DNA of 62,616 nucleotides, from the NCBI GenBank assembly GCA_900466575.1, contig UBMP01000021.1:1-62616 (forward strand), written 5' to 3'. The position numbers were made by a program, and so were the translations under genes. Below, one piece after another: positions 32,211-50,515 of this stretch. The notes under the pieces were generated by a model. That model was not told the DNA's origin, did not search any database, and saw nothing but the letters and a program-made list of their open reading frames with translations. Origin of the DNA: Hyphomicrobiales bacterium. Its GTDB lineage: Bacteria; Pseudomonadota; Alphaproteobacteria; Rhizobiales; Rhizobiaceae. Numbering within the stretch: position 1 is the first letter of the stretch; each line of letters starts with the position of its first letter.

Positions 32211-32380
32211 GTATGTCTCCGATCCCCTGGCCCGGCACTGAATTCCGCCGCAGGCCTGCCCGGTCTTCGTCGTGGTGCAAAGGCCATTAAAGCAGCGATC
32301 CGGACGGGAAACCGGACCACCGATACTTCATCGTTTCCCGTTTGCGCAATTGCCAAGGGCGCGATTGGCCCGAAAGACGT

Positions 32381-33739: not shown

Positions 33740-33808
33740 GTTCATCAGCCTCCGTGTCCCCTGGTGCCGGTCCCTATTTCAAAATTGCCGCTTGCCAGCG
33801 CGGTTATT

Positions 33809-33820
33809 ATGTATATACAT
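33809..33820. promoter_or_regulatory. HutC operator in the hutF/hutI divergent promoter
   Basis: ATGTATATACAT is a perfect 12-bp palindrome between the divergent hutF and hutI genes. It contains TGTATATACA, the core HutC site known from Pseudomonas hut promoters. Its central position lets one repressor control both directions. Confidence 0.8.
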
Positions 33821-33866
33821 GTTTTCAGAGATTGAAACCCCCTTTGGCAACTTTGCGAGGTGACCG

Positions 33867-35111: not shown

Positions 35112-36640
35112 CCATCACGCTTCGCCCCGGATCGGTTACCCTGAAGGATCTCGCCACCATTTACTGGACCGGCGAGCCGGCCCGGCTCGACCCGTCGTTT
35201 GACGCGGGTATCCTGAAGGCCGCCGCGCGAATTGCCGAGATCGCCGCCGGCAACGCGCCGGTCTATGGCATCAATACCGGCTTCGGCAAACTCGCCTCGA
35301 TCAAGATCGAGGCGGCGGATGTCGCCACCCTGCAGCGCAATCTGATCCTGTCGCATTGCTGTGGCGTGGGCCAACCGCTGCCCGAAAACGTGGTGCGGTT
35401 GATCATGTCGCTCAAGCTCGTGTCGCTTGGCCGCGGGGCTTCCGGCGTTCGCATCGAGCTGATACGCCTGATCGAAGCCATGCTGGAGCGCGGTGTCATC
35501 CCGCTGATCCCGGAAAAGGGCTCCGTCGGCGCCTCGGGCGACCTGGCTCCACTCGCCCACATGACCGCCGTCATGATGGGTCATGGCGAAGCGTTCTACG
35601 CAGGTGAGCGCATGGACGGAGCATCGGCCCTGCGCAAAGCCGGGCTGGAACCGGTTGTCCTCGCCGCCAAGGAAGGCCTTGCGCTGATCAACGGCACGCA
35701 GACATCGACGGCACTGGCGCTCGCCGGCCTCTTCCGCGCCCATCGCGCTGCGCAGGCGGCGCTCGTCACCGGCGCGCTCTCAACCGACGCCGCCATGGGC
35801 TCGGTCGCACCGTTCCATCCGGATATCCATACGCTGCGCGGACATCAGGGCCAGATCGATACCGCAGCGGCACTGCGGGCGCTGCTTGCCGGGTCTGCCA
35901 TCGTCACCAGCCATATCGAGGGTGATGAGCGCGTGCAGGACCCCTATTGCATCCGTTGCCAGCCGCAGGTCGATGGCGCCTGCCTGGACCTCCTCCGCTC
36001 CGTAGGCCGCACGCTCGAAATCGAAGCGAATGCGGTCACCGACAATCCCCTCGTGCTTTCGGACAATTCCGTCGTGTCCGGCGGCAACTTCCACGCCGAG
36101 CCCGTGGCCTTTGCCGCAGACCAGATCGCGCTGGCCGTCTGTGAAATCGGAGCGATTGCCCAGCGCCGCATTGCGCTGCTGGTCGATCCCGCCCTCTCCT
36201 ACGGCCTGCCTGCCTTCCTGGCGAAAAAGCCGGGATTGAACTCGGGACTGATGATTGCGGAAGTGACCTCCGCGACGTTGATGTCGGAAAACAAGCAGAT
36301 GTCGCATCCGGCCTCGGTCGATTCCACGCCGACATCCGCAAACCAGGAAGATCACGTCTCCATGGCCTGCCATGGTGCGCGCCGCCTGCTGGCCATGACC
36401 GAAAACCTGTACGGCATTCTCGGCATCGAAGCGCTGGCCGGTGCGCAAGGGATCGAATGCCGCGCGCCGGCGACCAGCCCGGAGCTTGCCAAGGCCATCA
36501 CAGCGATCCGTAGCGTCGTGCCGTCGCTGGAAGAAGATCGCTACATGGCCAATGACCTGAAGGCCGCTACAGACCTTATCGCCGATGGCACGCTGATCGG
36601 CGCTATTACCGCCGGCATCCTGCCTGCTCTGGAGATGTGA
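35108..36640 (+). CDS. hutH: Histidine ammonia-lyase
   Basis: A 510-residue histidase, converting histidine to urocanate and ammonia. The electrophilic MIO cofactor forms from Ala142-Ser143-Gly144 in [14 protein letters not shown]. The NTGFGKLA motif is at residue 56 and the C-terminal core QEDHVSMA is conserved. The frame is open far upstream in the hutI region, but the ATG at 35108 overlapping the hutI stop is the true start. Confidence 0.97.
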
Positions 36641-36641
36641 G

Positions 36642-37445
36642 ATGGCTGTTTTCGAAGTCACCCAAGGCTCATCGCCGGTCATTCTGGGCTTTCCCCACAC
36701 CGGGACCGATGTTCCTGCCGATATTCATGCTCGCCTGAACGACAATGGCCGGATTCTTGCCGATACGGACTGGCATATCCATGACCTTTACGATGGTCTG
36801 CTCGAAAACGTGACGACAGTTCGGGCTACCTTCCATCGTTATGTCATCGATGCCAATCGGGACCCGGCGGGTGTCAGCCTCTATCCGGGCCAGAACACGA
36901 CCGGCTTGATCCCTGAAACCGATTTCGACGGCCGGCCGATCTGGAAAGATGGGCAGGCTCCGACGGACGCCGACATTGCCCACCGCCTCCACGATTTCCA
37001 TGCCCCCTATCATGCAGCGCTTGCCGCAGAAATCGAGCGCGTGAAGGCGATCCACGGTATCGCCGTGCTCTATGATTGCCATTCGATCCGCTCGCACATT
37101 CCCTTCCTGTTCGACGGCAAGCTGCCGGACTTCAACATCGGAACGGACAACGGGAAGACCTGCGCGCCGGCCATCGAAGCAACAGCCGTCTCCGTGACAG
37201 CCGCTGCCGAAGGCTACACGAGCATTCTGAACGGCCGCTTCAAGGGCGGCTGGACGACGCGTCATTATGGCAGGCCGGAAACCGGCGTCCATGCCATCCA
37301 GATGGAGCTTGCCCAATCCACCCATCTGGCAACGGAAACCCCGCCATTTGCCTATGACCCATCGAAGGCGGACCGCCTGCGCATTCATCTGAAGGACCTC
37401 CTGACGCGCATCGAACAGATCGCGCTCGGGTTGAAGCAATCATAA
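36642..37445 (+). CDS. hutG: N-formylglutamate deformylase
   Basis: A 267-residue N-formylglutamate amidohydrolase, releasing glutamate and formate in the last step. [19 protein letters not shown] near the start and [17 protein letters not shown] are characteristic of the family. It starts 1 nt after the hutH stop, with a GGAG ribosome site inside the hutH end, so it is coupled. This FGase is unrelated to the arginase-type HutG of Bacillus. Confidence 0.95.
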
Positions 37446-37456
37446 GGGAACGCACC

Positions 37457-39142
37457 ATGACCAATCCTCGTCACAATATCCGCGAAATCCGCAGCCCGCG
37501 CGGCACGGAACTCAACGCCAAAAGCTGGATGACGGAAGCGCCGCTTCGCATGCTGATGAACAACCTCGATCCGGACGTTGCCGAAAACCCGCATGAGCTG
37601 GTGGTCTATGGCGGCATCGGCCGGGCCGCGCGCGACTGGGCGAGCTTCGACACGATTGTCGAAACCTTGAAAACGCTGAACGAGGACGAGACGCTGATGG
37701 TGCAGTCCGGCAAGCCGGTCGGCGTCTTCCGGACACACAAGGATGCGCCGCGCGTGCTGATTGCCAATTCCAACCTCGTGCCGCATTGGGCGACGTGGGA
37801 CCATTTCAACGAACTCGACAAGAAAGGTCTGGCCATGTACGGCCAGATGACGGCCGGTTCGTGGATTTACATCGGCACCCAGGGCATCGTGCAGGGCACC
37901 TACGAAACCTTCGTGGAAGCTGGCCGCCAGCACTACAACGGCGACCTCAAGGGCAAGTGGATCCTGACGGGCGGACTGGGCGGCATGGGCGGCGCGCAGC
38001 CGCTGGCTGCCGTCATGGCCGGGGCCTGCTGCCTGGCGGTCGAAAGCGACGAGACCCGCATCGATTTTCGCCTGCGCACCCGGTATGTCGATGAAAAGGC
38101 AAGGTCGCTTGATGAAGCCCTGGCCCTGATCGAACAGTGGACAAAGGCCGGTGAAGCAAAGTCTGTCGGCCTCCTGGGCAATGCCGCGGAAATCTTTCCG
38201 GAGCTCGTGCGCCGCATGAAGGCGGGCGGACCGCGCCCGGACATTGTCACCGACCAGACCTCCGCCCATGACCCGCTGAACGGCTATCTGCCGATCGGCT
38301 GGACCGTGGCCGAACACCGGGCCAAGCGCGAAACCGATCCGAAGGCGGTCGAAGCCGCTGCCCGCGCCTCCATGAAGCAGCATGTCGAAGCCATGGTCGC
38401 CTTCTGGGATGCCGGCGTGCCGACCCTCGACTACGGCAACAACATCCGCCAGGTCGCCAAGGACGAAGGGCTGGAAAACGCCTTTGCCTTTCCGGGCTTC
38501 GTTCCGGCCTATATCAGGCCGCTTTTCTGCCGCGGCATCGGCCCCTTCCGCTGGGCGGCCCTTTCGGGCGATCCGCAGGATATCTACAAGACCGATGCCA
38601 AGGTGAAGGAGCTGCTGCCGGATAACAAGCACCTGCACAAATGGCTGGACATGGCCCGCGAGCGCATCTCATTCCAGGGCCTGCCGGCGCGTATCTGCTG
38701 GGTTGGCCTCGGCGATCGCCATCGTTTGGCACTGGCCTTCAACGAGATGGTCAGGAGCGGCGAACTGTCTGCCCCGATCGTGATTGGACGCGACCATCTC
38801 GATTCCGGCTCGGTTGCCTCGCCGAACCGCGAGACGGAAGCGATGAAGGATGGCTCGGACGCCGTCTCCGACTGGCCCCTTCTCAATGCGCTGCTCAACA
38901 CCGCATCAGGCGCCACATGGGTGTCGCTACACCACGGCGGGGGCGTCGGCATGGGCTATTCGCAACATTCCGGCGTCGTGATTTGCGCCGACGGCTCGGA
39001 CGATGCGGCCAAGCGGCTCGAGCGCGTTCTGTGGAACGACCCGGCAACCGGCGTGATGCGCCATGCCGACGCGGGCTATGACATCGCCATCGATTGCGCC
39101 AAGGAAAAAGGCCTGCGCCTGCCGGGCATTCTCGGGAATTGA
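37457..39142 (+). CDS. hutU: Urocanate hydratase
   Basis: A 561-residue urocanase, hydrating urocanate to imidazolone propionate with tightly bound NAD. The NAD loop is [13 protein letters not shown] near residue 174, and the C-terminal part contains the conserved [13 protein letters not shown]. Length is normal for the family (about 555-560). It sits in the hutI-H-G-U-D operon, 11 nt after hutG. Confidence 0.97.
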
Positions 39143-39145
39143 GCG

Positions 39146-39715
39146 ATGAAACTTCTCCGCGCCGCCGCTCACAAACGCATGCCGTGGAAGAATGGCGGCG
39201 GGGAGACGGTCGAGATCGCCGTCTTTCCCGAGGACGCCGGACTGGGTGATTTCGACTGGCGGGTCAGCATGGCAACGGTTACCAGCGATGGCCCCTTCTC
39301 GATCTTCGAGGGGGTTGATCGCACGCTGACCATCCTTTCCGGGGCAGGCATGGCGCTGGGCATTGACGGCAAGCCGGCAGTGCATCTCACCTCATCCAAG
39401 GCACCACTCGCCTTCGCCGCCGATGTTCCGGTGGAGGCGACCCTCACTGATGGCCCAATCTCCGATCTCAATGTCATGACCCGGCGCGGCCTTTACGGCC
39501 ACCGGGTCGAGCGGCTGACCATCGAGGCCCACCACACCTTCTCATCCGTCGGAGAAGACCGCATCCTGCTCGCCTGCGATCACGGCTTGAGCGTGGTCTG
39601 GAACGGCCAGTCCGCGGATCTGGCACCGCAGGATGCCATCCTGCTGGAAGATGAAGCCGCCATTACGTTGCGCGGACACGGCACGGTTATAGCGATCAGC
39701 TTCGAGAGGTTGTGA
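39146..39715 (+). CDS. hutD: HutD-family cupin protein
   Basis: A 189-residue HutD/Ves-family beta-barrel protein. The opening MKLLRAAAHKRMPWKNGGGET is the hallmark of the family, followed by FDWRVSMATV. HutD is needed for optimal growth on histidine in Pseudomonas and is thought to limit over-induction, perhaps by binding a pathway intermediate; no enzyme activity is established. It begins 3 nt after hutU and closes the operon. It converges with the HisC-like gene across a 30-bp gap that has no visible terminator. Confidence 0.92.
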   Translation: MKLLRAAAHKRMPWKNGGGETVEIAVFPEDAGLGDFDWRVSMATVTSDGPFSIFEGVDRTLTILSGAGMALGIDGKPAVHLTSSKAPLAFAADVPVEATLTDGPISDLNVMTRRGLYGHRVERLTIEAHHTFSSVGEDRILLACDHGLSVVWNGQSADLAPQDAILLEDEAAITLRGHGTVIAISFERL

Positions 39716-39745: not shown

Positions 39746-40855
39746 TTATGGGGCAAGCGCTGCATCCAGCGACTGCAGGAACTGGTCGTTCTCAGCGACA
39801 CTACCGACGCTGACACGAATGAACGTCCGATAACCCTCCTGCTTCCAGGGCTTGACGATGACCCCGGCAGCGAGAAGCTTTTCAGCACAAGCGGTCGCGT
39901 CCGTCCCGCAATCGAAAAAGACGAAGTTGCCCTTCGACGGTGCAACGGTCAGCCCCCTGCCCTGAAGCGCCGCCGTCAGTCGCGCCCTTTCCGCCAAGGC
40001 AAGCGAGACCGTCCGCTCCAGATGGGCTTCATCACCAAGCGCTGACAGGGCAGCGGCTTGAGCAAATGCATTGGTGTTGAAAGGGGTTCGAACACGGTTG
40101 AGAAAGTCGCAAAGCCCGGCGCTCGACGCAAGGCCGAAGCCGATCCTGAGCCCTGCAAGGCCATAGGCTTTGGAAAAGGTGCGCAGGACGATCCAGCTCT
40201 TGTGGCTGGCCTTGAGGAGCTCGACCGTCGCCGGATAATCGTCGCCGGCCGCATATTCGGCATAGGCTTCATCGACAACGAGGAGCGTGTCATCGTCGAC
40301 AGCCTCCAGAACGCGGCCGAAATCGGATTGACCGATCCACGACCCCACCGGATTCATCGGGTTCGCGAAAAGAAGCATGCGGGGCTTGCGCTTGGCAGCC
40401 GCGATCAAGCCATCCGCATCCACCGTGAGATCCGGCTTCAGGCCGATGCGCTCGATCACGCCACCCATCAACACCGCGTAGTCCTCATGCAGCGGAAAGG
40501 ATGGATAAAGCGTGGTGACGACATCGCCCGGGCGAACAACCGCGCGGCAGATAACGCCGATCAGGTCTTCCGAGCCATTGCCCAGAACGATGTTCGCGGC
40601 ATCGACGCCGAAGCGGGCGGCCAGCGCTTCGCACAGCGCACGGCCCTTGGGATCAGGATAGAGCCTTGCCAATTCGGAGAGTTTGCCACCGAAATCCATG
40701 GCGCTCGGCGAAGGTCCGAGCGGGTTCTCGTTCGAGCCGAGCTTGGCAATCGTGGCGGGCTGATAGCGCGCTCGCGCCTCGTCCAGCGTGAGGCCTGAAT
40801 TGTAGGGCGGAATCCCGAAGATCTCGTCGCGGATGTGTCTCTTGCTGCTGGACAT
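39746..40855 (-). CDS. Histidinol-phosphate-aminotransferase-like PLP enzyme
   Basis: A 369-residue fold-type I aminotransferase resembling HisC. Seen are LGSNENPLGPSP near residue 44, GNGSEDLI, FANPMNPVGSW, VVDEAYAEYA and the PLP lysine region LRTFSKAYGLAGLRIG. The upstream ATG at 40888 lacks a ribosome site, while GAGAGG precedes the ATG at 40855. HisC homologs include imidazole-acetol-phosphate, aromatic and general 2-oxo acid transaminases. Its location, beside hut and divergent from an SDR under a HutC-type operator, points to a catabolic paralog rather than the biosynthetic HisC. The substrate is unknown. Confidence 0.85.
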   Translation of the reverse strand: MSSSKRHIRDEIFGIPPYNSGLTLDEARARYQPATIAKLGSNENPLGPSPSAMDFGGKLSELARLYPDPKGRALCEALAARFGVDAANIVLGNGSEDLIGVICRAVVRPGDVVTTLYPSFPLHEDYAVLMGGVIERIGLKPDLTVDADGLIAAAKRKPRMLLFANPMNPVGSWIGQSDFGRVLEAVDDDTLLVVDEAYAEYAAGDDYPATVELLKASHKSWIVLRTFSKAYGLAGLRIGFGLASSAGLCDFLNRVRTPFNTNAFAQAAALSALGDEAHLERTVSLALAERARLTAALQGRGLTVAPSKGNFVFFDCGTDATACAEKLLAAGVIVKPWKQEGYRTFIRVSVGSVAENDQFLQSLDAALAP

Positions 40856-40905
40856 GCTCGCCTCTCGTCTAGACTGTAAGGGCAGCATAGGAAGGAAAGC
40901 TCAAT

Positions 40906-40927
40906 TTGTCGATACATGTATAGACAA
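40906..40927. promoter_or_regulatory. 22-bp dyad operator between the HisC-like and SDR genes
   Basis: TTGTC-GATACATGTATA-GACAA is a near-perfect palindrome (20 of 22 positions symmetric) with core ATACATGTAT. Its right half TGTATAGACA is repeated in front of the HisD paralog. HutC-family regulators bind TGTATA-type sites, and two such regulators flank the region. Its central position suggests one regulator controls both divergent genes. Confidence 0.7.
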
Positions 40928-40974
40928 TTAAAACCAGTCGTGTTTCTATGCTGAAAAAGCAGGGGATCATAACG

Positions 40975-41739
40975 ATGAAATCCATGTTCGATCTGACGGG
41001 CAAGACGGCTGTGGTGACCGGCGCAAGCCGGGGTCTCGGGCAGCAGATTGCTGTGGCCTTGGCTGAAGCGGGAGCAGACCTTTGCGTCACAGCCCGCAGC
41101 GAAGCCTCGCTTGGCGAAACAAAAGCAAAGATCGAAGGAATCGGTAAGGTATGCCTTACGTCCGCGCAAGATGTTACCGATATCAGTTCAATCGATGTGG
41201 CGCTTTCCGCATTCGAAGCCCATGGCAGATCGATCGATATTCTGGTCAACAATGCGGGCTATGAGCAGGTGGCGCCCTCCCTCGATGTCGATGAAGAGAC
41301 CTGGGACCGGATCATCGGGACCAATCTCAAAGGCGCCTTCTTCTGGTCGCAGGCCGTGGCGCGCCGCATGGCGAAACAGGGCGGCGGCAGCATTGTCAAT
41401 CTCTGCTCCCTGACCTCCTATGTCGGCATCCCGACCGCCGTTCCATACGGCTCCTCCAAATCGGGACTGCTTGGCATGACACGTGCACTTTCGGCGGAAT
41501 GGGCGCAGTTCGGCATTCGTGTCAACGCCATCGCGCCCGGCTATTTCAGGACCGCCATGACGGAGGTTTTCTATCAGAACGAGGACTGGGCCATCCAGAT
41601 GCTGGGCAAGATTCCGCAGAAACGCTTCGGCACAGAAAGCGATATTGGCGGCGCGGTCGTCTTTCTCACCAGCGCTGCGTCCGCCTATGTCACTGGCCAA
41701 TGCATTCCGGTGGACGGGGGCTATCTGGCCTCGATATGA
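40975..41739 (+). CDS. Short-chain dehydrogenase/reductase
   Basis: A 254-residue classical SDR. The cofactor loop is TGASRGLGQQ near residue 15, followed by NNAGYEQ, and the catalytic triad S-Y-K is in NLCSLTSYVGIPTAVPYGSSKSG. The C-terminal TSAASAYVTGQCIPVDGG is typical. AGGGGAT before 40975 favours that start over the ATG at 40948. Its partners suggest it oxidises a secondary alcohol, like HpsP in sulfopropanediol catabolism, but the substrate cannot be read from sequence. Confidence 0.9.
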   Translation: MKSMFDLTGKTAVVTGASRGLGQQIAVALAEAGADLCVTARSEASLGETKAKIEGIGKVCLTSAQDVTDISSIDVALSAFEAHGRSIDILVNNAGYEQVAPSLDVDEETWDRIIGTNLKGAFFWSQAVARRMAKQGGGSIVNLCSLTSYVGIPTAVPYGSSKSGLLGMTRALSAEWAQFGIRVNAIAPGYFRTAMTEVFYQNEDWAIQMLGKIPQKRFGTESDIGGAVVFLTSAASAYVTGQCIPVDGGYLASI

Positions 41740-41755
41740 AAACGACAATTCCGGC

Positions 41756-41783
41756 TTGACAGCATAGCCGGCACGAATATTGT
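41756..41783 (+). promoter_or_regulatory. Predicted sigma-70 promoter of the HisD-paralog operon
   Basis: TTGACA (41756-41761), a 16-nt spacer and TATTGT (41778-41783) resemble a housekeeping promoter. The likely operator begins inside the -10 region, so repression by occlusion is expected. Confidence 0.5.
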
Positions 41784-41811
41784 ACATAGCTGTATAGACA
41801 TCTCTAGACAA
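41781..41811. promoter_or_regulatory. Second TGTATAGACA-type operator
   Basis: The 20-mer at 41781-41800 (TGTACATAGC-TGTATAGACA) matches 16 of 20 positions of the dyad between the HisC-like and SDR genes. A further TAGACA follows at 41805-41810. Together they mark a common regulator for three transcription units. Confidence 0.65.
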
Positions 41812-42009
41812 GAAAAACGGGAACGAAGCCTTAGGCTTCAAGGGTAGCTGCCGGCTCTCTCCGGCACTCAAGAAAGATGACACAGGGGCCGCCGTCGTTT
41901 TGTCCATGGACACGGCATGCGGAAACTGACCCAGGAATTCGATCGCCGCGCCCGCAAGCGCGGATGATGCTTGTTGTCCGCGTTTTGGCGCGTCAAGGAA
42001 GGTTGCAGC
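41801..42009 (+). promoter_or_regulatory. Structured leader of about 200 nt before the HisD paralog
   Basis: The predicted 5-prime UTR contains three strong stems: GAAGCC-TTA-GGCTTC (41825-41839), TGCCGG-CTCTCT-CCGGCA (41849-41866) and CGCGGA-N12-TCCGCG (41959-41982). An open frame starting at the ATG at 41877 and running 62 codons overlaps the hisD-like start in another frame; it has only a weak ribosome site. The leader could be a riboswitch or attenuator. I do not recognise a known class. Confidence 0.45.
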
Positions 42010-43338
42010 ATGACCAACGTCACTTTTCACGAATATGCGAAACTGAGCCGCGATGAAAAGAGCGCGCTCCTGCGCCGTTCGGAAACGGATATTTCCAGCT
42101 TTATCGAAAAGGTGACGCCCATCCTGGAAGCCGTGCGCACTGAAGGTGACCGCGCGATTGCCCGCTTTGGCCGCGAACTCGACAAGGCCGACATCACCGA
42201 AGCCAATATCAAGGTGACGGAAGCCGAATTCGACGAAGCGTTCAAGCTGGTCAGCGAAGATGTGATCGAAGCCATTACCTTCGGCATCGAAAACATCCGC
42301 CATTTCCATGAAGAGCAGAAGCCGGAAGCCATGTGGCTGAAGGAAATCAAGCCGGGCGCCTTTGCCGGCGATCGCTTCACGCCGATCAAGTCGGTCGCGC
42401 TCTACGTGCCGCGTGGCAAGGGATCATTCCCCTCGGTCACCATGATGACGTCGGTGCCTGCCGTGGTGGCGGGCGTGCCCAATCTCGCCATTGTCACGCC
42501 GCCGGCACCCGATGGTCGGGTAGACGCGGCAACACTGGTCGCCGCCCGCCTGGCCGGCGTCGAAACCGTCTACAAGGTCGGTGGTGCACAGGCGGTTGCC
42601 GCTGTCGCTTATGGGACGGAAACGATCAAGCCGGCGCTGAAGATCGTCGGGCCGGGCAGTCCGTGGGTGGTTGCCGCCAAGCGCAGCCTTGCCGGCATCA
42701 TCGACACCGGCCTTCCGGCTGGCCCATCCGAAGCCATCATCTTTGCCGACGACACGGTTCACGGGGGCCTTGCCGCCCTCGACCTGCTCATCGAAGCCGA
42801 GCATGGGCCGGACTCCTCCGCCTATCTCGTCACTCATAGCCGCCGGGTTGCCGAAGAGGCGCTTGCCGCATTGCCCGAGCATTGGGCACGCATGACCGAC
42901 CAGCGGGTGGAATTCTCCAGCAAGGTTCTGTCCGGCACCTGCGGCGGCATCGTTCTCACCTCCTCGATCGAGGAGAGCTACGACTTCGTCAACGCCTATG
43001 CGCCTGAGCATCTGGAAATCCTCTCGCAGGACGCCTTTGCCCATCTTGGCCACATCACCGAGGCCGCCGAGATCCTCATGGGGCCTTATACGCCGGTCAG
43101 CATTGCCAATTTCTGCCTCGGCCCGAACGCCGTTCTGCCGACCAGCCGCTGGGCTCGGACCTTCGGTCCGCTTTCGGTCACGGATTTCGTCAAGCGCAGT
43201 TCCATTGGCTATGTGACGGCCCCCGCCTATCCGGAATTCGCCAAGCGTGCCCACAAGCTTGCCGAATATGAAGGCTTCTCCTCGCATGCTCACGCCGTCT
43301 CCTCGGTGCGCGAAGCTTACCTTCCGAAGCGGGGCTGA
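42010..43338 (+). CDS. Histidinol-dehydrogenase-family enzyme, catabolic paralog
   Basis: A 442-residue member of the HisD family, NAD-dependent two-step alcohol-to-acid dehydrogenases. The catalytic pair E333-H334 (APEHLEI) is kept. Of the four zinc ligands of E. coli HisD (Q259, H262, D360, H419), the aligned positions are E262, H265, N367 and H426, so two are changed. The GPNH motif is GPNA, losing a substrate-contact histidine. This argues against histidinol as the substrate and toward a HpsN-like sulfopropanediol dehydrogenase or something new. AAGGAAGG before the ATG at 42010 fixes the start; the open frame from 41971 is discounted. Confidence 0.88.
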   Translation: MTNVTFHEYAKLSRDEKSALLRRSETDISSFIEKVTPILEAVRTEGDRAIARFGRELDKADITEANIKVTEAEFDEAFKLVSEDVIEAITFGIENIRHFHEEQKPEAMWLKEIKPGAFAGDRFTPIKSVALYVPRGKGSFPSVTMMTSVPAVVAGVPNLAIVTPPAPDGRVDAATLVAARLAGVETVYKVGGAQAVAAVAYGTETIKPALKIVGPGSPWVVAAKRSLAGIIDTGLPAGPSEAIIFADDTVHGGLAALDLLIEAEHGPDSSAYLVTHSRRVAEEALAALPEHWARMTDQRVEFSSKVLSGTCGGIVLTSSIEESYDFVNAYAPEHLEILSQDAFAHLGHITEAAEILMGPYTPVSIANFCLGPNAVLPTSRWARTFGPLSVTDFVKRSSIGYVTAPAYPEFAKRAHKLAEYEGFSSHAHAVSSVREAYLPKRG

Positions 43339-43343
43339 AATTC

Positions 43344-44357
43344 ATGAAGGCGGTCCGGCTTCACGACGCGCGCGATCTGAGGGTCGAGGACATCAAGCGG
43401 CCCGGCCCGCCGAAGGCCGGCCATGTCATCGTCGATGTTCGCGCCGCCGGAATCTGTGGGTCTGACATCCATAATTTTCAGACCGGCCAATGGATCAGCC
43501 GACGGCCATCGACGGCGGGACATGAATTCTGCGGACGCATCTCCGCAGTCGGTGAAGAGGTCGAAACCCTTACCGTTGGCGATCTCGTGGCCATCGACTC
43601 GCGATATTATTGCGGGCATTGCGCTGCGTGCGTCTCCGGACGCACCAATGTTTGCGAAAACCTCGGCTTTGTGGGTGAAGTCTGCGACGGCGGATTTGCC
43701 GAACAGGCGGAACTGCCCGCTCGGCTTGTCTTCCGGCACGACCCGGCTCTGCCTCCGGCGGTCGCTGCCATGGCCGAGCCGCTGGCCGTTGCGCTTCACA
43801 CCATCAGGCGTCTGAACGCCCCCACTGGCGAGGCCGTGCTGGTGATCGGTGCCGGCACGATCGGCGGCCTTTGCGGCCTGTTGCTTTCTCATCTTCACGA
43901 GGGCCGGCTGCTGTTTTCCGATATGAGCGCCGACCGCGCCCGGATGGTAGCGGATGCCTGCAATGGCAGCGTCGTCACCTTGGACAAGGCGAAAATCCGT
44001 CAGGTGTTGAGCGATCAGCGGCTGCGCTATGCCATCGATGCGACGGGCAGCGTGGCGGCAATCACACAAGGCCTTGATGTGCTCGATGGCGGCGGCGCAC
44101 TTGCGCTGGTCGGCATCGGTCACGGCAAGCTTGATCTCGATCCCACGACGCTTGTCGAGCGCGAGATCGCGCTGATCGGCTGCCATGCCTATGAACGGGA
44201 GCTGGAAGAAGCCATCGCCCTTTTGCCTGAGGTGCAGTCGACCCTCTTGCAGTTCGGTGAGATCCTGGACTCGCTGGATAAGATACCCGACGCCTACCAA
44301 CGTCTGATCGAGCGTCGCTCCGACAAGCTGAAAACCATCATCCGGGTCGCCGATTGA
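43344..44357 (+). CDS. Zinc-dependent alcohol dehydrogenase, MDR family
   Basis: A 337-residue medium-chain dehydrogenase. The catalytic zinc region is GICGSDIH then TAGHEFCG, the structural zinc cysteines are in CGHCAACVSGRTNVC, and the NAD loop is VIGAGTIGGLCG. It starts 5 nt after the HisD paralog. With the SDR and HisD paralog this mirrors the HpsO/HpsP/HpsN set that interconverts sulfopropanediol isomers and oxidises one to sulfolactate. Other polyols are equally possible. Confidence 0.9.
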   Translation: MKAVRLHDARDLRVEDIKRPGPPKAGHVIVDVRAAGICGSDIHNFQTGQWISRRPSTAGHEFCGRISAVGEEVETLTVGDLVAIDSRYYCGHCAACVSGRTNVCENLGFVGEVCDGGFAEQAELPARLVFRHDPALPPAVAAMAEPLAVALHTIRRLNAPTGEAVLVIGAGTIGGLCGLLLSHLHEGRLLFSDMSADRARMVADACNGSVVTLDKAKIRQVLSDQRLRYAIDATGSVAAITQGLDVLDGGGALALVGIGHGKLDLDPTTLVEREIALIGCHAYERELEEAIALLPEVQSTLLQFGEILDSLDKIPDAYQRLIERRSDKLKTIIRVAD

Positions 44358-44448
44358 CCCCTCGCCCGGCGCGCTCCTTCGATTGCGCCGTGCTCCTGCA
44401 GTTCAATATCTTGCATGCCCTCCGCTCTAAGAGCTTTCGGAAAAGGGC

Positions 44449-45219
44449 ATGCCTGAACCCACGCTGCGGCGTGAAACGGAGACGCATTTGACCGGTCTTT
44501 CGAACACGGCCCTGCCGCTCTATGAAAAGGTCAAGGATTTCGTCCTCGACAATATCGGCAACGGCAATTGGCCGCAGAACGAAAAGGTGCCGTCCGAACA
44601 CGAGCTGACATCCTCGCTCGGCGTTTCGCGCATGACCGTCCACCGCGCGCTCAGGGAGCTGACGGCGGAAGGTTATCTGCGGCGGGTTCAAGGCGTTGGG
44701 ACCTTCGTCTCCCCGCCGAAAGCCCAGTCCACGCTGATCGAGATCAGCAATATCGTCAGCGAAATCAAGGCGCGCGGGAGCCACCATCGCGCCGAGGTCA
44801 TAACGCTGGAGCGGATCACAAACCCCGACCAGATGCTGACGGAAGCGTTCGAATTCAAGGCGCCACAGCCTGTCGATCACTCGCTGATCGTGCATTACGA
44901 AAACGACGTGCCAGTGCAGCTGGAAGAGCGTTACGTGAACCCGCAACTGGTCAAGAACTATCTCGACCAGGACTTCACCTCCGCGGCCACATACGATTAC
45001 CTGCAGCACAGCACGCCGTTGACCGAGGTCGAACATCTGATCAGTGCCGTTCCCGCCAATGAGCGGCACGCGAAGCTTCTGCATATCCGCGAACGTGACA
45101 GCTGCCTCGTGCTGAACCGCAAGACCTGGACGGGGCAAACGGTCGCGACCGTCAATATCTTCACCTATGTCGGCAGCCGTTACACCCTCGGCAGCCGCTA
45201 CCTGCCGCCGCCGAAATGA
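44449..45219 (+). CDS. GntR/HutC-family regulator of the HisD-paralog cluster
   Basis: A 256-residue HutC-family repressor. The winged helix spans roughly residues 24-90 (LYEKVKDFVLDNIGNG, LGVSRMTVHRALRELTAEGY), and the UTRA domain has IVHYENDVPVQLEERYVNP. In my reading it resembles Pseudomonas HutC more closely than the hutF-linked regulator does, especially in the UTRA segment. It is the obvious candidate to bind the TGTATAGACA operators at 40906 and 41781. The effector may be urocanate or a related imidazole, or a cluster-specific intermediate. Confidence 0.9.
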   Translation: MPEPTLRRETETHLTGLSNTALPLYEKVKDFVLDNIGNGNWPQNEKVPSEHELTSSLGVSRMTVHRALRELTAEGYLRRVQGVGTFVSPPKAQSTLIEISNIVSEIKARGSHHRAEVITLERITNPDQMLTEAFEFKAPQPVDHSLIVHYENDVPVQLEERYVNPQLVKNYLDQDFTSAATYDYLQHSTPLTEVEHLISAVPANERHAKLLHIRERDSCLVLNRKTWTGQTVATVNIFTYVGSRYTLGSRYLPPPK

Positions 45220-45262
45220 GGACCTTTTCTTGCGAACTGACCGGCATGAAAAAGGGATGACG

Positions 45263-46549
45263 ATGCAAACGACAAGCCGAACAGCAGCCATTCGAGAGCA
45301 TGCGAGACGCCGTGACGGAACCGCGGAAGCCTTGCTCGGCGAACTGCTGCGCAATCTCTTTGACATTGATGCCGGTGCGGTCGCCATCAACTACGACCAA
45401 TACAGTCTCAATTCGCTGAACGGCTTCTTCGAGGCGAACGGCGAGCCCTATTTCTTCAAGTTCCATCAGGAGGAAAACGAAGAGGAAATGAGCGGCGAGT
45501 ATTACCGCGCCGATATTCTGGCGCGGGCTGGGCTTCCGGTCGATCAGCCGGTGATGATGTCGACGCTGCCGGGCGAACAGATCCTCGTCTACAAGCGCCG
45601 GACCGATCCGCGCTTTTCCGATGTGCTGCGTGCACTCGACCAGACCCATGACGAAGCGGCTGCAATCGAGGCTGTTGCGGCGGAACGCGAGCTCAATGAG
45701 GCTGTTCTTGCCGTCTATCTGAAGACGCTTCACCCCGTGAGCACCGAAGAGGTCGCCCGCGAACCGATCCATCGGCTCTTTTACGACCGGCTGGTTTCCG
45801 CGCCGGAAGGCGCCTATCCGGGCGGGCGGCTTGCAAGCTTCTATGTCGACAAGAGTTTTGAATTTCCGGGCGCGACCCTGTCCTGGGCAGAGCTTTCCAG
45901 CACCCGCTTCGTGATCAACGGCGTGGAGTACCGCGACACGCTCGCAACGCTTTTTGACGCGGCGCACCTGCGCCTTGCGCCCGCGCGCCTGGCAGACAAT
46001 GGCGGCGTGACCGCCCATGGTGATGCGCACAACGCCAATGTCTGGTTCGAGCGTCACGCCGATGGCGCGTCGCTCTCCTTCTTCGACCCGGCCTTTGCGG
46101 GAGAACATGTCCCGACCCTTCTGGCCGAGATCAAGACGACGTTTCACAACATCCTCGCGCATCCGTTCTGGCTCTACGACCCGGCGCTTGCCGAGCAGAC
46201 ATTCAAGGCTGTGGCGCGCTTCGAAAACGGTCGGCTGTTCGTCGATTTTGACTGGCAACTCTCGCCGGTACGGCAAGCTCTGCTGCAGACGAAAGCCGAG
46301 ACCATGTGGCGACCGCTTCTCGCCACGCTGAAGCAGAAGGGCATGCTCCCGCCGGACTGGCGCGATGTAGTCAGATTGGGCCTCTTCCTCTGCCCGACCC
46401 TGGTCATGAACCTGCGCGCTGGGGCGACAAGCCACAATGCCACTTCATCCCTGATCGGCCTTTCCATCGCCGTCATGGTGGGCTCACCGCCCGTGGATGG
46501 CTCGGACATGATCACGCGCTTCCTTGACTCGATCGATCCGGACAGGTGA
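45263..46549 (+). CDS. Aminoglycoside-phosphotransferase-fold small-molecule kinase
   Basis: A protein of about 428 residues with the kinase signature HGDAHNAN near residue 252, followed by FFDPAFAGEH, equivalent to the Brenner motif and the metal-binding Asp of APH/choline-kinase-like enzymes. The N-terminal half is unusual, and the family is not one I can name. AAAGGG is 6 nt from the ATG at 45263, making it preferable to the upstream starts. It probably phosphorylates a small alcohol in this cluster, perhaps the imported substrate. It starts 43 nt after the regulator and lies 4 nt before the FMN dehydrogenase gene. Confidence 0.7.
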   Translation: MQTTSRTAAIREHARRRDGTAEALLGELLRNLFDIDAGAVAINYDQYSLNSLNGFFEANGEPYFFKFHQEENEEEMSGEYYRADILARAGLPVDQPVMMSTLPGEQILVYKRRTDPRFSDVLRALDQTHDEAAAIEAVAAERELNEAVLAVYLKTLHPVSTEEVAREPIHRLFYDRLVSAPEGAYPGGRLASFYVDKSFEFPGATLSWAELSSTRFVINGVEYRDTLATLFDAAHLRLAPARLADNGGVTAHGDAHNANVWFERHADGASLSFFDPAFAGEHVPTLLAEIKTTFHNILAHPFWLYDPALAEQTFKAVARFENGRLFVDFDWQLSPVRQALLQTKAETMWRPLLATLKQKGMLPPDWRDVVRLGLFLCPTLVMNLRAGATSHNATSSLIGLSIAVMVGSPPVDGSDMITRFLDSIDPDR

Positions 46550-46553
46550 CCTG

Positions 46554-47726
46554 ATGACGATCGTAAACATCGATGACCTTCGGCTTGCAGCCGAGCGGAG
46601 ACTGCCAAAGCTCTTCTTCGACTATATCGATGGAGGCTCCTTCAGCGAGGAAACCTATCGCCGCAATCGAGAGGATTTTTCACGCCTCGCGCTCCGGCAG
46701 AACGTGCTTGCGGACAGCGCCGAGCCTGATCTTTCGACGGACTATCTCGGGCAGCGGCGCGCCTTGCCCTTCATGCTGGGTCCCGTCGGCTTTCTGGGGC
46801 TTTATTCCCGACAGGGCGAACAGAAATCGGCCCTGGCCGCCCATGCCGCCGGCATTCCATTCTGCCTGTCGACATTTTCGATCGCTTCGCTTGCGGATGT
46901 TCGCAAGGCGACGAACGGCCCGTTGCATTTCCAGCTCTATGTTCTGGATGACCGTTCCCTCATGAACGAACTTCTCGCTGCCGCAGAAGATGCCGCCGCC
47001 GAAGCGCTGTTCGTCACCGTCGATACCGCCGTCACCGCGGTCCGCGAACGCGACGTGCGCAACGGCTTCAGGTCGATCACACGCGTGACGCCGGGCCTTT
47101 TGGCAAGCTTCTGCCGGAAGCCGGGCTGGCTTCTTGACATTGCAGCGGGTGGGCAGCCCTCGGTGCGAGCGCTGGAACACCGGGCGGATTTCGGCAAGGG
47201 CGCACTGGAACAAGCCGCCAATCTGTCTCGGCGCATCGACAAGAAACTATCCTGGAACGATATCGCGCGCCTGCGCGACCGCTGGAAGCGACAGTTGATC
47301 ATCAAGGGTGTACTTTCGCCGGAAGACGCGGAAAAGGCAAAGTCCATCGGTGCCGATGGCGTCGTCATCTCCAATCACGGTGGCCGGCAGCTGGATGGCG
47401 CGATGAGCACGATCGCGGCACTTCCTGCCGTTCGCGCAGCCGTGGGACACGATTTCACGCTGATGCTCGATGGAGGCATCCGCCGCGGCAGCGATATCAT
47501 CAAGGCGATTGGCATGGGGGCGGACGGTATCATGCTGGGTCGCGCCTATACTTTCGGCCTCGCCGCGAAGGGTCAGGCAGGCGTTGCAGAGGCAATACAG
47601 ATCCTTGAGCGAGAGGTCTCCATCACCTTGACCCTCATGGGTTGCGGATCGATCGATGAACTGAAGAAAAGGCGCTCACATTTTGTGTTCAGGCAGCATG
47701 CCACAGCGCAAGAGGGGATCGTATAG
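46554..47726 (+). CDS. FMN-dependent 2-hydroxy-acid dehydrogenase/oxidase
   Basis: A 390-residue member of the lactate/mandelate/glycolate oxidase family. Active-site residues are visible: Y24 (DYIDGG), Y129 (FQLYV), D157, K251 (IIKGV), and H275/R278 in SNHGGRQLDG. It oxidises a 2-hydroxy acid to the 2-oxo acid. AGGTGA before the ATG at 46554 selects that start. In this cluster it could oxidise a sulfolactate- or imidazole-lactate-like product, whose 2-oxo acid would suit the HisC-like transaminase. Confidence 0.9.
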   Translation: MTIVNIDDLRLAAERRLPKLFFDYIDGGSFSEETYRRNREDFSRLALRQNVLADSAEPDLSTDYLGQRRALPFMLGPVGFLGLYSRQGEQKSALAAHAAGIPFCLSTFSIASLADVRKATNGPLHFQLYVLDDRSLMNELLAAAEDAAAEALFVTVDTAVTAVRERDVRNGFRSITRVTPGLLASFCRKPGWLLDIAAGGQPSVRALEHRADFGKGALEQAANLSRRIDKKLSWNDIARLRDRWKRQLIIKGVLSPEDAEKAKSIGADGVVISNHGGRQLDGAMSTIAALPAVRAAVGHDFTLMLDGGIRRGSDIIKAIGMGADGIMLGRAYTFGLAAKGQAGVAEAIQILEREVSITLTLMGCGSIDELKKRRSHFVFRQHATAQEGIV

Positions 47727-47828
47727 GCTAAAGACAATCCGAATACGCTCGCGGTCTACCCTCGGGCGAGAAACTGGCATATCCAACGCTTTTAACACCG
47801 CTGAAACCATCAAAAAGAGGGGTTCTCC

Positions 47829-48845
47829 ATGAACAGACAAATCATCAGCAAGAAGCTTTCCAGCGCCATCTTCGCACTCGGCCTCGTCGGCCTGATTGCC
47901 GGTCCGCAGGCCCTCGCGCAGGACAAGATCCCTGCCAAGCCTGAGGCAGGGTCCTTCAAGATCGGTATCGAGCCCTGGCTCGGCTATGGCCAGTGGCACG
48001 TCGCCGCTGCCAAGGACCTGTTCAAGAAGAGCGGCCTGGAAGATGTCCAGATCGTCAACTTCAGCGAAGACAAGGACATCAACGCAGCGCTCGCCAGCGG
48101 CCAGCTGGATGCGGCCAATATCGCAACCCACACCGCCATGGGCATGGTTGCTGCGGGCCTCCCGGTCAAGATCGTCTCCCTGCTCGACTTCAGCCTGAAG
48201 GCTGACGCCATTCTCGCCGGGGCCGATATCAAGACTGTCGCCGACCTGAAGGGCAAGAACGTTGCCTTCGAAGAGGGCACGACCAGCGACATTCTCCTGA
48301 ACTACGCGCTCACCAGCAATGGCATGACCATCAACGATATCACCCGCGTTCCGATGCCCGCAGCAGATGCAGGCTCGGCGCTGATCGCCGGCAAGGTCCC
48401 GGTGGCCGTCACCTACGAGCCCTATATCTCGGCGGCAATGGCGCAGGACAAGAACGTGAAGATGTTGTTCGAAGCCGGCAAGGATCCGGGCCTGGTATCC
48501 GACGTTCTGGTCGTCCGTGAAGACGTCCTGAAGTCCAAGCCGGGTCAGGTTCTGGCCATGATCAAGGCCTGGGATGCTGCGCTCAAGGACTACAAGGCCA
48601 ACACGGAAGCCGACCGCGCCATCATTGCGAAGGCCGTCGGCGCATCGCCGGACGACCTGAAGACAGCCTTCGACGGCGTTCAATACTATAGCTCTGCCGA
48701 AGCCTCGAAGGCATTTGCAGGCGACTTCAAGTCGAAGACCTTCCCCGATGTTCTCAAGGCAGCCAAGCAGGCCGGCCTTGTTTCCACGGACGTTTCCTTC
48801 GACACGATCGTCGATCCTGCCTTCGTCGACGCTGCGAACAAGTGA
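47829..48845 (+). CDS. ABC transporter substrate-binding protein, sulfonate/taurine (SsuA) type
   Basis: A 338-residue periplasmic binding protein with a signal peptide ending near GPQALAQD (about residue 36). The mature part (FKIGIEPWLGYGQWHVAAA, AALASGQLDAANIATHTAMG) is the NMT1/SsuA-like fold that takes up sulfonates, nitrate, riboflavin precursors or taurine. It starts 102 nt after the FMN dehydrogenase, with a strong AGAGGGG site. The ligand is unknown; sulfonate is plausible from family alone. Confidence 0.88.
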   Translation: MNRQIISKKLSSAIFALGLVGLIAGPQALAQDKIPAKPEAGSFKIGIEPWLGYGQWHVAAAKDLFKKSGLEDVQIVNFSEDKDINAALASGQLDAANIATHTAMGMVAAGLPVKIVSLLDFSLKADAILAGADIKTVADLKGKNVAFEEGTTSDILLNYALTSNGMTINDITRVPMPAADAGSALIAGKVPVAVTYEPYISAAMAQDKNVKMLFEAGKDPGLVSDVLVVREDVLKSKPGQVLAMIKAWDAALKDYKANTEADRAIIAKAVGASPDDLKTAFDGVQYYSSAEASKAFAGDFKSKTFPDVLKAAKQAGLVSTDVSFDTIVDPAFVDAANK

Positions 48846-48870
48846 TCTCAGGCCACTCGACAGGATCGTG

Positions 48871-49731
48871 ATGTCCAGTTCAGAACAATCCCAGACTTCG
48901 AGCAAACGACCCCGCGCGTCATCGCGCGCGGGTGTCGGCCGCCCGCCCAGCCCCTTCCGCATCGGCGATCCGATCGGCGGCGGGTCCTTCGTCTTGATCG
49001 CCGTTTGTGTCTTTGCGCTGCTCTTTGTCATCTGGTGGCTTGCCACGGCGACGGGTTGGGTCAAGCCGATCTTTCTGCCTTCCCCAAGCGCCGTCGGAGC
49101 CAAGATGTGGGAGCTGGCACTGGACGGGACGCTTTGGACCGACGCCGGCATCAGCATCTACCGCATGCTGGTCGGCTTCTTGATTGCCTCTGCGCTGGCC
49201 ATCCCGATCGGGATCATGATCGGCTGTTTCAAGACATGGGAAGCGGCAATCGAACCCTTTGTCGATTTCGTCCGCTACATGCCGGTCGTCGCCTTCGTCC
49301 CACTGACGATTCTTTGGGCCGGAACCAGTGACATCCAGAAATTCGTGATCATCTTCATTGGCACCTTTTTCCAGCAGGTCCTGATGGTGATGGACAGCGT
49401 CAAGCGCGTGCCGTCCGATTTTGTCGGCCTTGGCAGAACGCTTGGCATGTCGGAAACCAGTATCCTGCGGCGGATCGTGCTGCCATCTGCGCTTCCCGGT
49501 ATCTGGGATACGCTCAGGATCAGCCTCGGCTGGGCCTGGACCTGGCTGGTGCTGGCGGAACTTGTGGCCGCGACATCGGGCCTCGGCTACCGCATCGTTG
49601 TCTCGCAGCGTTATTTCCAGACACAGACGATCATAGGCTACATCCTGCTCCTTGGCTTGCTCGGGCTCATCACGGACCAGACCATGAAAGCCCTTGAGCG
49701 CGTCCTTTTCCGCTACACATCAAGGCATTGA
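48871..49731 (+). CDS. ABC transporter permease, SsuC/TauC type
   Basis: A 286-residue single permease. The N terminus is a basic, serine-rich cytoplasmic tail (about 45 residues) before the first helix, FVLIAVCVFALLFVIWWLAT. Several later helices and the EAA loop near FVGLGRTLGMSE are seen. Starts earlier in the frame (from 48715) overlap the binding-protein gene and are discounted. It forms a homodimeric channel for the transporter. Confidence 0.9.
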   Translation: MSSSEQSQTSSKRPRASSRAGVGRPPSPFRIGDPIGGGSFVLIAVCVFALLFVIWWLATATGWVKPIFLPSPSAVGAKMWELALDGTLWTDAGISIYRMLVGFLIASALAIPIGIMIGCFKTWEAAIEPFVDFVRYMPVVAFVPLTILWAGTSDIQKFVIIFIGTFFQQVLMVMDSVKRVPSDFVGLGRTLGMSETSILRRIVLPSALPGIWDTLRISLGWAWTWLVLAELVAATSGLGYRIVVSQRYFQTQTIIGYILLLGLLGLITDQTMKALERVLFRYTSRH

Positions 49732-49732
49732 C

Positions 49733-50515
49733 ATGAGCGATTCCAAACTGAAGATCGCGGGTCTCAACAAGTGGTTTGGCGGCAAGTCAAACCGGGTTCA
49801 CGCGCTGAGCAATATCGATCTGGAACTTGCGGACAATGAATTCGTCTCGCTTGTCGGCGCTTCCGGCTGCGGCAAGAGCACGCTTCTGTCCATCGTCGCC
49901 GGTCTTCAGGGCTTTGATGACGGCGTTCTCCTGACAGATGGCGCACCCATCATCGGCCCGGGCCTCGATCGCGGCGTGGTTTTCCAGTCCTACACGCTTC
50001 TACCTTGGCTCACCGCCCAGCAGAATGTGGAATTCGCCCTGCAGGCGGCGGGCCTTCCACCGGCCGAATGCCGCGATGTCGCGCGTCATCATATCGAACT
50101 GGTCAAACTGACGCGCTTTGCCGATGCCTTCCCCTCTCAGCTTTCTGGTGGCATGAAGCAGCGTGTAGCGATTGCACGGGCCCTCTCCTACCGGCCGAAG
50201 ATGCTCCTGATGGATGAACCCTTCGGCGCCCTCGATGCACTGACCCGCCATCAGATGCAGGAGCTGCTGACGGACATCTGGGAGGAGCACCGGTTGACCG
50301 TTCTTTTCGTGACGCACGATGTCGAGGAGGCCGTTTATCTCTCCGACCGGATCGTGGTCATGAGCATCAATCCCGGTCGCATCAACGCCACCTATCATGT
50401 GGGACTTGCCCGTCCCCGCCATCAGGACATGATTTCCACGCCGGACTTCATCATGCTTCAGAAGCAGGTTCTCGCCTCGATCCGGGAGGGGTCCCGCGAG
50501 ATGATCCCTGCTTGA
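49733..50515 (+). CDS. ABC transporter ATPase, SsuB/TauB type
   Basis: A 260-residue ATPase. Walker A is GASGCGKST, the signature is LSGGMKQR, Walker B is MLLMDEPFGALD, and the H-loop is in LFVTHDVEEAVYL. It completes the SsuABC-type importer. AAGG before the ATG at 49733 fixes the start. A 100-bp gap to the convergent LysR gene shows no clear terminator. Confidence 0.92.
   Translation: MSDSKLKIAGLNKWFGGKSNRVHALSNIDLELADNEFVSLVGASGCGKSTLLSIVAGLQGFDDGVLLTDGAPIIGPGLDRGVVFQSYTLLPWLTAQQNVEFALQAAGLPPAECRDVARHHIELVKLTRFADAFPSQLSGGMKQRVAIARALSYRPKMLLMDEPFGALDALTRHQMQELLTDIWEEHRLTVLFVTHDVEEAVYLSDRIVVMSINPGRINATYHVGLARPRHQDMISTPDFIMLQKQVLASIREGSREMIPA

Follow-up and report, generated by a model that had tools for sequence, protein, structure and literature searches.

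Why should genes resembling those of histidine biosynthesis stand beside an operon that degrades histidine, in company with a kinase and an importer? This question is raised by positions 39746-50515 of the window, by which we mean the whole analysed stretch of 62,616 nt of Hyphomicrobiales bacterium contig UBMP01000021.1 (assembly GCA_900466575.1). A sequence-only reading had named ten genes in this block: a HisC-like transaminase, a short-chain dehydrogenase/reductase (SDR), a HisD-like dehydrogenase, a zinc alcohol dehydrogenase (ADH), a HutC-type regulator, a small-molecule kinase (KIN), a flavin mononucleotide (FMN) 2-hydroxyacid dehydrogenase and the three proteins of an SsuABC-type importer. 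All ten are present, and the open reading frame list and family scans agree with the families named. Judged by sequence comparison and gene context, the block is probably a HutC-controlled peripheral pathway, which would import an imidazole-bearing alcohol and convert it into L-histidine for the adjoining histidine utilization (hut) operon.

A conserved module and its link to hut

KIN was taken as bait because it belongs to no family. The scan of genome contigs gave 25 loci, and the search of plasmids gave 107 records, of which 105 span 80% of the query or more. KIN was found in 22 of 297 Rhizobiaceae genomes (the source genome counted), in 5 of 296 genomes of the class of Planctomonas (E 1e-20) and in 1 of 274 genomes of the class of Celerinatantimonas, which is the bait genome itself. 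These low counts show that the module is rare and patchy; its range covers Rhizobiaceae, Klebsiella plasmids and Actinobacteria. The Klebsiella module had no match among the E. coli genomes searched.

Sixty KIN loci entered the count, and 53 distinct loci remained after those with KIN at least 95% identical were removed. Within 11 kb of KIN we found HisD and SDR in 50 loci each, ADH in 44, HutC in 34, the FMN enzyme in 31 and HisC in 25, where SDR, ADH and HutC were counted from a loose 28% identity and short contigs depress the counts. The actinobacterial SDRs (28-31%, one 43%), the ADH of L097 (29%, on the other strand) and several HutC are matches at family level only. The grouping of KIN with HisD, SDR and ADH exceeds chance, and KIN ranks among the three most constant parts of the module. 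Three loci lack HisD: L030, on a 3.6 kb contig; L114, whose contig ends inside KIN and whose genome carries HisD and an ADH on another contig (L115); and L090. In L090, KIN has no module gene within 11 kb, and an 81% HisD match with an in-frame stop lies about 29 kb upstream (G092:C1:4377650-4409389), so that this module appears to be a split and decayed copy. Seven loci have an SDR but no ADH, and four of these (L016, L018, L025, L031) are not short actinobacterial contigs, which suggests a separate task for the SDR. The actinobacterial order HisC-HisD-KIN-FMN-SDR recurs in L112, in L113 (contig ends in HisD) and in L115 with L114 (one genome).

The module very probably feeds hut. In 12 of the 53 loci, the window counted, KIN has a hut enzyme no more than 11 kb away, although in one of them (L093) this is a 35% hutH match that may be another lyase. 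The alphaproteobacterial cases are L019, L022 and L020/L101 with hutF, I, H, G and U, L055 and L099 with hutF, and L091 with hutH; those in Microbacteriaceae are L021/L116 with hutI, F, U, D and H and L026/L100 with hutH, U, F and I. In Tolumonas (L030) KIN is followed by hutU, and Pseudomonas typographi (L031) has hutH. One run of strain IMCC20636 (L022) holds HisC, SDR, importer, HisD, ADH, KIN and FMN enzyme together with hutF, I, H, G and U; Roseitalea (L101) has the same set, but its contig stops before any FMN gene. The Microbacteriaceae locus L116 holds hutI, F, U, D, HisC, hutH, ADH, SDR, HisD, FMN and KIN plus importer genes. The hut-linked lineages lie far apart, separate phyla included.

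The Klebsiella plasmid pKAM622_5, a 46 kb circle, bears the module plus a separate hut island in the order alpha-hydroxy acid oxidase, hisC, hutU, hutH, ABC importer, hutD, hutF, hutC, hutI, hutG. Because the oxidase adjoins hisC, hutU and hutH there, this context supports assigning the FMN enzyme and HisC to the hut side of the module. At least four of the nine module-bearing Klebsiella plasmids carry the island, though these four may be close kin. It was also matched in 28 of 5426 E. coli genomes, always on plasmids, and 11 of these matches extend over 80% of the query or more. Among plasmid records 114 matched the island, 77 at 99% identity or more and 55 covering at least 80% of the query; L080 (NZ_AP026397.1, 28000-46293) is such a plasmid-borne island with alpha-hydroxy acid oxidase and hisC.

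Urocanase was detected in 14 of 18 searched entries and not in the genome of L023 or in three of four plasmid records. In Rhizobiaceae, all 22 KIN-bearing genomes have a urocanase match, against 247 of 297 overall; this points in the right direction yet is weak because hut is common.

The features of the window are as follows.

31488..32210 (-), hutC of the hut operon, histidine utilization repressor (TIGR02018 284.5 bits, cut-off 220; match 31503-32180)
32381..33745 (-), hutF, formimidoylglutamate deiminase (TIGR02022 620 bits, cut-off 413)
33810..33819, predicted operator TGTATATACA between hutF and hutI, exact TGTNTANACA
33867..35111 (+), hutI, imidazolonepropionase (TIGR01224 430.4 bits, cut-off 298)
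35108..36640 (+), hutH, histidine ammonia-lyase (TIGR01225 723.8 bits, cut-off 539)
36642..37445 (+), hutG, N-formylglutamate deformylase (TIGR02017 403.1 bits, cut-off 279)
37457..39142 (+), hutU, urocanate hydratase (TIGR01228 973.1 bits, cut-off 375)
39146..39715 (+), hutD-like protein, with 48% identity to the HutD family protein annotated in L080; NCBIfam gave no match at E 1e-60
39746..40855 (-), HisC-like transaminase (NF003496, histidinol-phosphate transaminase, 556.4 bits, cut-off 540)
40917..40926, predicted operator TGTATAGACA in the divergent HisC/SDR promoter, at the same position in many relatives
40948..41739 (+), SDR dehydrogenase (PF13561), module core
41791..41800, predicted operator TGTATAGACA between SDR and HisD
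42010..43338 (+), HisD-like dehydrogenase of the E/N/A clade described below (PF00815 453.9 bits), module core
43344..44357 (+), zinc alcohol dehydrogenase (PF08240)
44449..45219 (+), HutC-type GntR repressor of the module (TIGR02018 272.6 bits, cut-off 220)
45257..46549 (+), KIN, APH-fold small-molecule kinase without a curated family, module core
46554..47726 (+), FMN 2-hydroxyacid dehydrogenase (PF01070 416.8 bits)
47829..48845 (+), SsuA-like binding protein (PF09084; TIGR01728 142.8 bits, under the cut-off of 163.5)
48871..49731 (+), SsuC-like permease (PF00528)
49733..50515 (+), SsuB-like ATPase (PF00005)

The hut operon, its own HutC included, spans 31488-39715 directly upstream of the block. 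Gaps of 5 bases (HisD-ADH), 37 (HutC-KIN) and 4 (KIN-FMN) suggest a single operon. Outside the block, two adjoining GMC-type choline-dehydrogenase-like genes lie at 53343-56584 (-); one is over the PRK02106 cut-off and neither is over that of betA.

Predicted operator and published expression

The pattern TGTNTANACA occurs exactly three times in the window (33810, 40917, 41791), where 0.3 would be expected from base shuffles, and its sites mark the hut promoter (hutF/hutI) and two module promoters (HisC/SDR and SDR-HisD). We then counted it over 1.04 Mb of the 53 loci, to which the window contributed positions 30000-53000. There were 70 sites, spread over 37 loci, and 67 of them lie no more than 350 bp upstream of a gene of the module or of hut. 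Each of four control patterns gave 2 to 6 sites in the same loci, with 0 or 1 upstream; related loci are not independent in these counts. Sites of this type also precede hutU in L030, and the hutH of L031 and the Klebsiella hut island have them too. We regard them as a putative HutC operator, one site class common to hut and module promoters. HutC binds palindromes of this sort and responds to urocanate. The first operator guess had been dropped, as it gave 2 weak sites only.

The HutC-type regulator of the sequence-only reading holds at the level of the equivalog: the module protein passes the TIGR02018 cut-off. Three proteins of the source genome do so, namely those of the hut operon, the module and contig C20 (G000:C20:17698-18372, 295.2 bits).

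Published data add to this picture. In the tolC mutant of S. meliloti 1021, the values in Table 2 are -11.4 for hisC3 (SMa0387), -15.6 for SMa0391, -8.3/-23.5 for SMa0392, -10.5 for SMa0394, -10.1 for SMa0396, -10.6 for hisD2 (SMa0398) and -8.4 for the GntR gene SMa0402 (PMC2912261). The same array gave -10.3 for hutU, -11.5 for hutG and -7.7 for hutH, which lie on another replicon (SMb). The paper keeps the histidine biosynthesis genes apart from these SMa genes, contrasts the hut genes, and speaks of a transporter of unknown function. We equate the SMa genes with L035, the module on pSymA, on the strength of gene order and location, not of a sequence accession; PMC12542648 places hisD2 (SMa0398) at about 214.9 kb on pSymA and lists for it a PhaR motif marked NE, and this position fits that of L035. 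Thus, module and hut are strongly down together in this mutant. The first hypothesis of the sequence-only reading, uptake of an imidazole alcohol or of a compound like imidazole lactate with hut as the end of the pathway, is supported in outline by the hut linkage, the shared operator and this expression pattern.

The HisD-like dehydrogenase and its companions

The window HisD is well over the cut-off of the HisD family (TIGR00069, 425.7 vs 243.8 bits), matches PF00815, and has a HisD as its best PDB match (269.5 bits, against 184.7 for HpsN). To compare its active site we read a signature at E. coli HisD positions Q259, H262, E326, H327, D360, Y361, H367, E414 and H419. Biosynthetic HisDs read QHEHDYHEH and HpsN-like proteins QHEHDKHEH, whereas the window HisD and the tested module HisDs read EHEHNFAEH, which is kept down to about 40% identity in Actinobacteria. 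The zinc ligands Gln259, His262, Asp360 and His419 hence become Glu, His, Asn and His. In a tree of 51 rows, all 36 rows with this Glu/Asn/Ala (E/N/A) pattern fall on one side of a branch with support 100/99, and five Lys361 rows cluster at 100/100 among other HisDs; the tree carries a long-branch warning. By sequence, the module HisD is a third HisD clade, whose zinc site is altered (Glu for Gln, Asn for Asp, Ala for His367).

The HpsN study reports that zinc is held by an axial Gln and an equatorial Asp, that the hydroxyl or amino group of the substrate sits at the equatorial site and the sulfonate or imidazole at the axial one, and that His126 and Lys353 of HpsN bind the sulfonate (PMC11382572). 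Both of these residues are Phe in the window HisD (Phe368 for Lys353), and the HpsN motif GRY[AS]H is replaced by GKGSF. With Gln/Asp changed to Glu/Asn and both sulfonate residues to Phe, the protein is not an HpsN by these features.

The source genome has a separate HisD of normal signature at C8. A third paralogue, G000:C17:37614-38828 (L043), has Lys361 but reads GKYPL instead of the HpsN GRYxH; it groups with a Cupriavidus copy (L058), and the two appear from their sequences to form a further HisD type.

In Monoglobus (L062, 6004-8934), an E/N/A HisD, a divergent homologue of imidazoleglycerol-phosphate dehydratase (IGPD) and an HAD hydrolase stand in a row. The IGPD homologue matches PF00475 with 104.9 bits, lies under the HisB equivalog cut-offs it matched (115.7 vs 189 and 109.7 vs 231), and has CHLVCEDVG at the HisB motif, which is HHTVEDVG. 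There was no KIN match on the 518 kb record searched, the rest of the genome being outside the search, and no other his gene is annotated in the 13 kb covered. The row may belong to a split biosynthetic operon.

The window transaminase passes two histidinol-phosphate transaminase cut-offs, and two actinobacterial ones are under theirs. The FMN enzyme bears the motif SNHGGRQLDG. Two Microbacteriaceae modules without HisC in range have a thiamine diphosphate (ThDP) enzyme in the FMN-HisD run (L023:2702-4390, L029:3851-5581). That of L023 falls in the acetolactate synthase/oxo-acid decarboxylase superfamily, and among the matches listed it passes no equivalog cut-off; as Xsc it scored 115.8 vs 676.4 bits, far under the cut-off. 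An oxo-acid product would fit this enzyme class; in the two modules the enzyme possibly gives the oxo acid another fate.

The SsuA-like protein fails the SsuA subfamily cut-off (TIGR01728). SsuA was found in 23 of the 53 loci and PotD in 22, never both together, with neither in 8; in these 22 loci a polyamine-type PotABCD importer replaces SsuABC. One PotD-type protein had weak PDB matches which include polyamine, agropine and mannopine binders. The swap favours a ligand that is neutral or cationic over a sulfonate.

KIN has no NCBIfam match at E 0.001, no PDB sequence match at E 1, and nothing credible in a profile search of the PDB; plasmid annotations call it hypothetical. Its only Pfam match, PF01636, is under the cut-off (18.7 vs 23.2 bits), and 8 of 27 members match PF01636 at E no greater than 1. 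It has an APH-type fold with the catalytic HGDxxxxN and Asp, and structure comparison puts it near PsiK, methylthioribose kinase, LxmK and 25-hydroxysteroid kinase; since many APH-fold kinases score alike, the lists single out no subfamily. The earlier remark that the kinase fits neither proposed scheme is borne out for schemes built on dehydrogenases only, but KIN belongs to the most constant parts of the module.

The proposed route, its rivals and known systems

The preferred reading, an imidazole alcohol turned into histidine for hut, would run from imidazole alcohol to imidazole lactate, imidazole pyruvate, histidine and urocanate. KIN may phosphorylate a hydroxyl of the imported compound, perhaps imidazole glycerol, for removal before the SDR and HisD steps; this step is doubtful. 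The SDR, with ADH where present, might set the oxidation state or configuration at C2 before HisD acts. The E/N/A HisD would oxidise the terminal CH2OH of an imidazolyl C3 alcohol (e.g., imidazolyl-propanediol) to imidazole lactate, by analogy with HpsN, which makes sulfolactate from sulfopropanediol; we give this step an even chance. Context supports the end of the route, which is likely: the FMN dehydrogenase would convert imidazole lactate to imidazole pyruvate, the HisC-like transaminase would convert that to histidine, and HutH/U/I/F/G would then degrade it.

Known histidine and sugar-ammonia chemistry offers imidazole glycerol, imidazole acetol and imidazolyl-propanediol as candidate substrates. 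A more specific form, that the module degrades imidazole glycerol (a dephosphorylated intermediate of histidine biosynthesis) or a related imidazole polyol, is tentative and rather unlikely. Here KIN would phosphorylate the ring-adjacent hydroxyl, phosphate loss would give imidazole acetol for the SDR to reduce, and HisD with its charge-swapped zinc site would oxidise the diol to imidazole lactate, leaving the FMN enzyme, transaminase and hut to finish.

Several observations weigh against the route from imidazole alcohol to histidine. No hut enzyme lies within 11 kb of KIN in 41 of the 53 loci, and 28 lack HisC and 22 the FMN enzyme, although some contigs are short; the L023 genome without urocanase indicates that hut is not obligatory. 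The operator is absent from 16 of the 53 loci, including the Klebsiella module and the complete set of seven from Actinobacteria, among which four have an IclR match in place of HutC. Genome-wide, the 12-base ATGTNTANACAT (at most one mismatch) occurs at 16 places, three within the window and four keeping the exact core by reading, vs 15 for the reversed control. A transaminase over the histidinol-phosphate cut-offs would fit a phosphate substrate. No elimination enzyme for the KIN product was seen near the modules, whose neighbours are identified in part. The Monoglobus link speaks for imidazole chemistry but is a single case, no more than a hint at imidazole glycerol chemistry. Finally, ntrB, ntrC and glnK are also down in the tolC array (PMC2912261), and nitrogen control could account for the co-expression.

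Two rivals keep histidine as the product, and both are improbable. In the first, plain histidinol use, HisD makes histidine from L-histidinol for hut, with HisC, FMN enzyme, SDR and ADH in side routes. This would suit the HisD family score, the retained catalytic Glu and His and the hut linkage. However, the tested module HisDs carry Gln259Glu, Asp360Asn, Tyr361Phe and His367Ala, the genome already holds the normal HisD at C8, and KIN and SDR, the companions of the module HisD, are left without a task.

The second, salvage through biosynthesis, is improbable to the same degree. KIN would make imidazole glycerol phosphate, the cellular HisB would dehydrate it, the HisC- and HisD-like enzymes would finish histidine and hut would burn it. 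It has the merit of a single path for kinase, HisC and HisD, and it agrees with the transaminase scores, the small-molecule kinase fold of KIN and the pairing of the same HisD type with an IGPD homologue in Monoglobus. However, the recurring proteobacterial or actinobacterial neighbours, themselves identified only in part, showed neither a dehydratase nor a phosphatase that could be recognised; the FMN enzyme and SDR have no task; and the HisD signature departs from histidinol dehydrogenases.

Still less probable is that the substrate is a nitrogen-rich compound lacking imidazole and that shared nitrogen regulation alone ties the module to hut, as the fall of ntrB and ntrC and the many loci without a nearby hut enzyme might suggest. 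It is HutC and its predicted operator, not NtrC alone, that mark the module, the oxidase, hisC, hutU and hutH stand in one run, and module and hut share one locus in separate phyla.

A sulfonate pathway (sulfopropanediol, sulfolactate, sulfopyruvate, cysteate), the second hypothesis of the sequence-only reading, is very improbable: a HisD-SDR-ADH trio like that of the HpsN-type locus L059 and an SsuABC-like importer recall it, but HisD lacks the sulfonate residues and is closer to HisD than to HpsN in the PDB, PotABCD stands in for SsuABC, hut linkage and operator point elsewhere, and Xsc has no match in the source genome and is over its cut-off in 2 of 31 KIN genomes (SuyAB and CuyA were not searched for).

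If the route from imidazole alcohol to histidine is true, histidine catabolism would gain an undescribed entry, carried on plasmids of Klebsiella and of root symbionts; a kinase family annotated as hypothetical would acquire a function, and the published S. meliloti expression pattern could be explained. The 'histidinol dehydrogenases' would also fall into clades that can be told apart by reading the zinc-site signature, and some genes annotated as hisD would be misnamed. Searches of the open-access literature gave no description of such a pathway, HisD clade or kinase family. Routes into hut are of a known kind; relative to the literature searched, the route, the HisD clade and the kinase family would be new.

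Among known systems, LxmK and 25-hydroxysteroid kinase prime a hydroxyl for elimination; KIN is 12% identical to each, and no lyase partner was found for it. LxmK is the kinase of the PDB entry titled 'Lexapeptide dehydratase complex LxmKY'.

Biosynthetic HisD shares with the module HisD its family, the catalytic Glu326/His327, and His262, Glu414 and His419 (E. coli numbering). It differs at the four substituted positions, falls on the other side of the 100/99 branch, and has GSAPL or GTASY where the module HisD has GK[GA][SA][FY].

Sulfopropanediol oxidation by HpsNOP resembles the proposal in its four-electron oxidation of a C3 alcohol to a 2-hydroxyacid on a HisD fold and in its companion dehydrogenases, as described for CpHpsN (PMC11382572). 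Unlike it, the module has no sulfonate-binding His126/Lys353, has a changed zinc site, is linked to hut and carries a kinase in its core.

Another parallel concerns the end of the route. Pseudomonas and Comamonas use imidazolyl-lactate through imidazole pyruvate and histidine. The last proposed steps here are the same, and the upstream alcohol steps and the kinase would be additional.

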